From Nocardioidaceae bacterium (GTDB lineage Bacteria; Actinomycetota; Actinomycetes; Propionibacteriales; Nocardioidaceae), in assembly GCA_029266455.1 (NCBI GenBank), contig JAQSWV010000017.1:1-46231 (forward strand): a DNA stretch of 46,231 nucleotides, given 5' to 3'. The notes beneath the pieces are model-generated. The model was given only the letters and a program-made list of their open reading frames with translations. It was not told the origin of the DNA and did not search any database. Positions 19,789 to 21,620 of the stretch are shown here, piece by piece (the first letter of the stretch is position 1; each line of letters opens with the position of its first letter). Both the position numbers and the translations under genes were made by a program.

Positions 19789-19959
19789 ATGAGCACCGAC
19801 AAGGCCAAGCACTCGGCCGAAAGCGCGATCGGAAAGGCCAAGGAGGCCACCGGCAAGGCGTCCGACGACAAGGACATGCAGGCCGAGGGCAAGAACGAGC
19901 AGTCCAAGGCTGACCTGAAGAAGGCCGGCGACAGCGTGAAGGATGCCTTCAAGCGCTGA
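19789..19959 (+). CDS. CsbD-like general stress protein
   Basis: A 56-residue hydrophilic Lys/Asp/Ala-rich protein: KAKHSAESAIGKAKEATGKA followed by MQAEGKNEQSKADLKKAGDSVKDAFKR. This is the CsbD pattern of short amphipathic helices. Family members accumulate in general stress but have no known biochemical activity. The GAAGGGAA ribosome site precedes the ATG at 19789. It is the last gene before the repeat-rich block. Confidence 0.88.
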   Translation: MSTDKAKHSAESAIGKAKEATGKASDDKDMQAEGKNEQSKADLKKAGDSVKDAFKR

Positions 19960-19990: not shown

Positions 19991-20131
19991 GTCAACGATC
20001 CGCGACTTGCGCAGGCAACGATCCGCGACTTGTGCAGGCGCCACCGACCCCCGCCGCCGCCCCCCGTCGACGATCCGCGACTTGCGCAGGCGTCACCGAC
20101 CCCCAGGTCGACGATCCGCGACTTGCGCGGG
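19991..20131 (+). repeat. repeat cluster A: four copies, forward
   Basis: Copies at 19991-20015, 20016-20038, 20066-20090 and 20107-20131 share CGATCCGCGACTTG flanked by GTCGA/GTCAA on the left and (T/C)GCAGG or GCGGG on the right. The first two abut; the others are separated by Pro-like CACCGACCCCC spacers of 27 and 16 bp. Confidence 0.95.
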
Positions 20132-20686
20132 CCGCCGTTGCTACCCAGGCCAGCGCGGCATGAAAAATCCTGCGCGGTCGTCAGTCGGCCTATCCTGGTG
20201 CGGCGGTGGGGTGGCCCTCATTGGGGTGATCGGTGCTTGGCCAGAGATGCTGGCGATCGGGGAGGAGGCCGAGCGTGCGGCGTAACCCGGTCCGCGCTGC
20301 GTTCTACGACAGCCGCGGCCTCACCACCCTCGAGCGCACGTCCGGCAACTAGCGCGCCGCCACCCACGCAATGCGCTGCCTCGGGTGGCGTTCATCCGCG
20401 CCGCACAACGCGTGCGGCCCATCGCTCGAGGACATCGCCGCCACCTTGCGCACCCTCTCGCGAGGACGCACTCCCACTGAGGACGACTGGGAGCAGCTAT
20501 CCCAGTCACGGCAGCTTTTGATCGTCAGTTGAATTGTGAAATGGAAGTTCTGAGCGACCGCTTCAGGCGGCTGCATCGGACCGGTTGGGGTATGTCTGCG
20601 CGGCACACCAGCCGCGCCGCCAGCATCTATTGGGGCGGGGCGATCCCGACCCGCGGCCGGGTCATCGATGCCGGGTAGGTCCCCGT

Positions 20687-20834
20687 CCTGCACAAGTCGC
20701 GGATCGTCGATCTGTGGGGACTCGAGCTCTGCACAAGTCGCGGATCGTCGACGAGGGTGGGTCGAGCTCTGCACAAGTCGCGGATCGTCGACTGGGGGTG
20801 GGATGGGTCCCTGCACAAGTCGCGGATCGTCGAC
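20687..20834 (-). repeat. repeat cluster B: four copies, inverted
   Basis: Copies at 20687-20710, 20729-20752, 20769-20792 and 20811-20834 are the reverse complement of cluster A (CTGCACAAGTCGCGGATCG with GTCGAC or GTCGAT following). Spacing is regular at 40-42 bp. Spacers are G-rich and of 16-18 bp. The last copy ends 15 bp from the fabI stop. Confidence 0.95.
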
Positions 20835-20849: not shown

Positions 20850-21620
20850 TCAGGCACCCATCGCGTGGTAGCCACCGTCGACGTGCACGATCTCGCCGGT
20901 AGTGGCGGGGAAGAAGTCGCTGAGCAGTCCGACGACGGAGCGGGCCGTCGGTCCCGTGTCCTGATGGTCCCAGCCGAGAGGCGACCGCTCCGCCCACATC
21001 CCCTCCAGCTGCTCGAACCCGGGAATGGCCTTGGCCGCCAGGGTCTGCAGCGGGCCGGCAGCGACGAGGTTGACCCTGATGCCCTGCGCGCCGAGGTCGC
21101 GTGCGAGGTAGCGGGCGGTCGACTCGAGGCTGGCCTTCGCGACCCCCATCCAGTTGTACGCCGGCCAGGCGACCGTCGCGTCGAACGTCATTCCGACCAC
21201 GGAGGAGCCGCGACTGAGCATCGGTAGCACGGCCTCGGTCACCGCCGCCAGTGAGTACCCGGACACCTGGACCGCCTGGGCGACGTCGGCCCAGGGCGCA
21301 CCGAGGAAGCCGCCCCCGAGCACGGTCTCGGGATTGCCGTAGGCGATCGAGTGCACCAGCCCGTCGAGGCCGTCCACGTGCTCGCGGAGCCGGTCGCCCA
21401 GGGTCGCCAGATGCTCGTCGTCGCTGACGTCGAGCTCGATCACCGGGGCGGGTTCGGGGAGTCGGCCAGCGATGCGACGGGTGATGCCGAGCGCCCTGCC
21501 GAAGTTGGAGATCACCACCGTCGCGCCCTGCTCCTGCGCCGTCCGTGCGACCGCGAAACCGATCGAGCTGTCCATGGTGACGCCGGCCACCAGGATGCGC
21601 TTGCCCTCGAGGATCCCCAC
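20850..21620 (-). CDS. fabI: enoyl-ACP reductase (NADH), InhA-like
   Basis: Reduces trans-2-enoyl-ACP in type II fatty-acid synthesis. The 256-residue protein has the FabI nucleotide site GVTMDSSIGFAVA (13-25), S91 in VHSIAY, and the Tyr-x6-Lys pair Y155/K162 in PAYNWMGVAKASLES. The M-G-V-A-K context is closer to InhA than to enteric FabI. The GTG at 21620 is chosen because AAGGAGC lies just upstream. The preceding fabG on the same strand gives the mabA-inhA order known from mycobacteria. Confidence 0.94.
   Translation of the reverse strand: MGILEGKRILVAGVTMDSSIGFAVARTAQEQGATVVISNFGRALGITRRIAGRLPEPAPVIELDVSDDEHLATLGDRLREHVDGLDGLVHSIAYGNPETVLGGGFLGAPWADVAQAVQVSGYSLAAVTEAVLPMLSRGSSVVGMTFDATVAWPAYNWMGVAKASLESTARYLARDLGAQGIRVNLVAAGPLQTLAAKAIPGFEQLEGMWAERSPLGWDHQDTGPTARSVVGLLSDFFPATTGEIVHVDGGYHAMGA

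Follow-up and report, generated by a model that had tools for sequence, protein, structure and literature searches.

Why should two clusters of one short repeat face each other across several hundred base pairs between two convergent genes? The question is raised by a block within the window, the stretch of 46,231 nucleotides from a member of the Nocardioidaceae that is considered here. The initial annotation had described eight copies of a 24-25 bp unit in two clusters of opposite orientation, and a search with the 25-mer at up to three mismatches recovered exactly these, four forward (19991-20131; match starts at 19991, 20014, 20066 and 20107) and four inverted (20687-20834; match starts at 20687, 20728, 20768 and 20810), against an expectation of zero matches from dinucleotide shuffles of the window. 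Pfam bears out the placement of the block between convergent csbD and fabI (Table 1). The near-constant spacing reported for the second cluster is real (start-to-start distances of 41, 40 and 42 bp), and the forward cluster is irregular (23, 52 and 41 bp). Helical phasing, which had been read from this spacing, is not established because a single mode at 41-44 bp dominates the distances; periodicity is similarly strong at all periods from 9.5 to 12 bp.

Table 1. Features of the repeat block in the window, and locations of the 22-bp arrays in the two species of the genus
Feature	Position	Strand	Basis or remark
csbD-like stress-response gene	19789..19959	+	Pfam CsbD 2.5e-14; stop codon 36 bp ahead of first core
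Core copy 1 (CGATCCGCGACTTGCGCAGG)	19996..20015	+	motif match
Core copy 2 (CGATCCGCGACTTGTGCAGG)	20019..20038	+	motif match
Core copy 3	20071..20090	+	motif match
Core copy 4, GCGCGGG variant	20112..20131	+	motif match
soxR (MerR-family) pseudogene, frameshifts and in-frame stop(s)	20236..20643	+	tblastn and blastn against same-genus soxR
Core copy 5, inverted	20687..20706	-	motif match
Core copy 6, inverted	20728..20747	-	motif match
Core copy 7, inverted	20768..20787	-	motif match
Core copy 8, inverted, exact consensus	20810..20829	-	motif match; fabI stop 20 bp away
fabI-like enoyl-ACP reductase, convergent with csbD	20850..21620	-	Pfam adh_short_C2 5.6e-68; same-genus orthologue 90% identical
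22-bp arrays	host L121-L127, L032, L044, L059; same-genus L112-L120		directly after stop codons

The 555 bp between the clusters (20132-20686) had been described as a geneless, decayed core and, as one option, as the remnant of a mobile element. Length and decay hold, but the interval is not featureless. The SoxR protein of the same genus matches it in tblastn (2e-20, 39% identity), and 258 bp (20248-20503) align with the intact gene at 73% DNA identity. These alignments identify the decayed core as a soxR pseudogene, and the mobile-element reading of it is therefore wrong. In the one genome on which our same-genus comparison rests (G001, whose FabI protein is 90% identical), the order csbD-soxR-fabI is found with an intact MerR-family soxR (locus L071), and this orthologous site contains no repeats, that is, it is an empty site.

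Searching the unit through the host genome, a check proposed in the initial annotation, revealed about 150 copies at about 50 intergenic sites of a 3.43 Mb draft that comprises 128 contigs, is about 97% complete and has several repeat clusters at contig ends. At up to three mismatches GATCCGCGASTTGTGCAGG occurs at 158 places (8 for the reversed control), and at one mismatch the core occurs at 142 places (3 for the control). In the set of 143 copies in 48 clusters collected for the analysis of motif and arrangement, the conserved unit has sharp edges and consists of 20 bp, CGATCCGCGA[C/G]TTGTGCAGG, with C and G equally frequent at the bracketed position; the 24-25 bp unit thus describes the matches in the window but not the conservation across the genome. 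By inspection the core is non-palindromic. It is preceded by a weaker C-rich stretch, CCCCCCAGGCGA, of which GTCGA/GTCAA beside the cores in the window is a local variant. Only one of 52 clusters lies inside a called gene, and single copies have more mismatches on average (1.57) than clustered copies (0.75-0.86).

Within arrays, the core is far better preserved than the DNA between the copies. Among 35 adjacent pairs with recognisably homologous spacers, which are partly non-independent, core divergence was 3.1% and spacer divergence 22.3%, with the core less diverged than the spacer in 32 pairs and more diverged in one; stricter homology cut-offs gave 2.7% versus 17.4%, and then 2.0% versus 9.4%. 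This contrast is not merely a detection limit, because the score distribution contains nearly no low-scoring copies. The low divergence of the core relative to the spacers indicates that it is under selection or homogenised, and recent spread or gene conversion could also yield such conservation. As the motif is maintained and the intervening DNA drifts, it is probably recognised by something in the cell. The earlier idea of a protein-binding array gains indirect support from this contrast, with the binding factor itself still putative.

The arrangement of the copies is polar. Where runs of opposite orientation meet, 19 of 21 junctions are convergent, i.e. face inward, and two are divergent (p about 0.0002). 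Direct runs reach five copies opposed by an inverted run, and across the 48 clusters direct spacing has its mode at 41-44 bp, while a further group spreads broadly over 50-63 bp. Both orientations are present in 20 clusters, with 28-1100 bp between inverted partners and unrelated interiors, and 28 clusters have a single orientation. The initial annotation had also proposed to map the copies relative to genes. Sites prefer convergent gene ends, with 15 clusters between convergent genes (3.4-4.3 expected), and they avoid divergent promoters, with six clusters between divergent genes (9.6-16.1 expected), as judged from genes called on the 128-contig draft by a home-made finder based on codon usage. 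Of 61 scored runs, 26 are not downstream of the stop codon of a codirectional gene; gene ends are thus favoured but not obligatory. Concordance with transcription is automatic, and hence uninformative, between convergent genes; between codirectional genes 13 runs point with transcription and 11 against it, and a strict 3'-end orientation rule was rejected. The repeats neighbour ordinary chromosomal genes (e.g. ftsQ/ftsZ, ispD, ispF, dapB and a radical-SAM enzyme), and no transposase was found among 40 neighbouring genes scanned. One repeat copy is located between ftsQ and ftsZ (L038:4571-4589), and at L045:10508-11640 the gene of a 239-residue protein lies between convergent ispD and ispF with inward-facing repeat runs on both sides. 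Genes enclosed by inverted arrays are unrelated to each other, and a shared cargo was therefore rejected.

Outside the host genome the family practically disappears. The initial annotation had suspected that the unit is dispersed across related genomes; this was not borne out, as the exact 18-mer core is absent from all 97 relatives searched, the same-genus genome included, and none of them exceeds background in counts at one mismatch. Public contigs yielded one match in a genome contig and two in viral contigs, all isolated and without arrays. A plasmid or phage origin of the repeat found no match in the searches and was dropped. In the literature searched, the repeat sequence was not found in any paper, nor did we find a paper joining repetitive extragenic palindromic and intergenic repeats with Actinobacteria. 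The 20-bp repeats are best read as REP-like extragenic repeats that make up a new, lineage-limited family.

A second tandem family, with a 22-bp unit (GCGGTCCGCGGSTTGTGGTTGC and variants), occurs at 39 places in the host, at 17 in G001 and close to zero elsewhere. Its unit matches 15 of 20 core positions of the 20-bp family, which only 5 of 20,000 shuffled units do, and it occupies the same intergenic regions; it differs in its contiguous 22-bp period, its position after stop codons and its presence in both species of the genus. Array starts lie between -4 and 37 bp past stop codons, and between codirectional genes 9 of 10 runs have the direction of the gene. At two adjacent gene ends both species have retained 22-bp arrays whose copy numbers differ, and one orthologous convergent region carries a 22-bp array in G001 and the 20-bp family in the host. 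Many other tandem minisatellites with units of 12-24 bp are found by stop codons of the host genome (L168-L182; e.g. L169:8093-8232, L174:662-798 and L175:7794-7881), and a relative from another genus (G011, L164:13920-13992) has a 36-bp tandem unit with TGGTCGAGCCTGTCGACACCAC 1 bp past a stop codon. Because minisatellites of unrelated sequence also favour post-stop positions here, location alone is weak evidence, and strand coupling and the shared core are the stronger points.

At the RNA level, a strand running through both clusters of the window folds into a long, very stable stem (z = -13), in agreement with the folding anticipated in the initial annotation. Close inverted pairs elsewhere, down to 28 bp apart, give hairpins that are nearly perfect (z = -6.6 and -7.9). 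Taken by itself, the forward array does not exceed shuffled sequence in folding (z = -1.06), and a search of Rfam gave no match at E<=1. A structured RNA, as had been proposed, is thus possible only where both orientations are present, and an RNA stem is not the general function because 28 of the 48 clusters have a single orientation.

The repeats are dispersed and tandemly amplified, face inward, prefer gene ends and keep a constrained core. We give an even chance to the reading that the block belongs to a lineage-limited REP-like family whose core is recognised, at gene ends, by a putative DNA-binding factor. The direct arrays arise when a core is amplified locally in tandem together with its spacer, and the 20-bp core would serve as the site of a sequence-specific factor; we infer recognition at the DNA level because core orientation is indifferent to transcription between codirectional genes. 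Bound arrays at gene ends would then form boundaries between convergent genes at which transcription is stopped or insulated, and in transcripts that cover both orientations the long RNA stem could aid termination or 3'-end protection. At the window site, the arrays flank a soxR gene that has lost its function. Transcript termination and the insulation of convergent genes are plausible but hypothetical roles.

The main rival, to which we assign a smaller though substantial probability, is a selfish, non-autonomous mobile repeat of REPIN- or MITE-like type, whose transposase was lost, lies outside the draft or is of an unrecognised type, whose placement reflects tolerated insertion and whose core is kept for mobilisation. 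That the repeat occurs in one species and is lacking in the same-genus genome implies recent spread; convergent pairs as near as 28 bp form REPIN-like hairpins, single copies are slightly more diverged, as reported for REP singlets (PMC3116915), and the unrelated post-stop minisatellites of the host fit simple tolerance. However, the 97%-complete genome encodes no Y1_Tnp (RAYT) domain, none of the 40 scanned neighbouring genes is a transposase, inverted partners lie at distances from 28 to 1100 bp around unrelated interiors, and the core is non-palindromic. Rather unlikely, in our estimate, is a 3'-UTR element that acts in the transcript via an RNA factor or termination. The sister 22-bp family, with its tight post-stop placement, its gene-directed runs and its persistence at two adjacent gene ends of two species despite different copy numbers, speaks for such an element, but the 20-bp family shows a 13:11 orientation in tandem contexts and its one-way array folds like shuffles. 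The related spacers of similar length within arrays would suit plain local tandem duplication of no wider meaning; as this cannot explain why one core recurs at about 50 sites whose flanks are unrelated, ordinary local duplication is ruled out as an account of the family, and we attach next to no probability to it.

Should the core be a site for a protein, some 50 natural gene-end arrays would reveal a new actinobacterial termination or chromosome-organising protein. If the repeat is mobile, it is a REP-like family that spread recently in the absence of a RAYT, and it would inform the question of how repeats of this type propagate. The two species, with the 22-bp family common to both and the 20-bp family in one, show a repeat family before and after its emergence.

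Among known repeats, REP, REPIN and BIME elements of gamma-proteobacteria and other bacteria are the closest: their units of 20-40 bp occur in more than 100 intergenic copies and are limited to species (PMC3116915, PMC3733652, PMC2817692), and they lie between convergent or unidirectional gene pairs, where numerous units are closely grouped and oppositely oriented (PMC3733652, PMC3116915). The 20-bp family shares the copy number above 100, the intergenic placement between convergent or unidirectional genes, the close opposed units, the species limit and a unit that is conserved while its spacers vary. Inverted doublets, a REPIN feature, may have a counterpart in the clusters with both orientations (20 of 48, junctions 19:2 convergent), but their spacing is unfixed (28-1100 bp), direct runs of up to five face an inverted run, and the unit is non-palindromic and forms no hairpin by itself (forward array, z = -1.06). 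A RAYT (Y1) transposase (PF01797) was not found in the host genome, whereas 5 of 14 control genomes were positive. With palindromic unit and RAYT both absent, we use the label REP-like and not REP. MITE or IS termini would enclose a homologous interior, and the sequences enclosed here are unrelated chromosomal genes. A CRISPR array does not fit, the copies being dispersed, in both orientations, often with related spacers and with periods of 23-137 bp; no cas gene was among the 40 scanned neighbours. The MIRU minisatellites of mycobacteria are also actinobacterial, dispersed intergenic units with tandem amplification by stop codons, but they have longer units and run with genes, whereas the 20-bp family is shorter and shows no strand coupling (13:11). 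In Beggiatoaceae, TAACTGA direct repeats form 169 intergenic tandem sets at gene boundaries, for which a bound regulator was proposed (PMC4679880); these are heptamers just upstream of start codons, in contrast to 20-mers at gene ends in our host. TTF-I with its Sal boxes and Tus with Ter are site-specific, protein-bound terminators. By analogy, a putative actinobacterial protein on tandem, non-palindromic sites of 20-22 bp might polarly block RNA polymerase or replication forks, inward arrays insulating convergent genes; improbable as we consider this specific version to be, the gene-end arrays described here would then be the proposed bacterial counterpart of such terminators.
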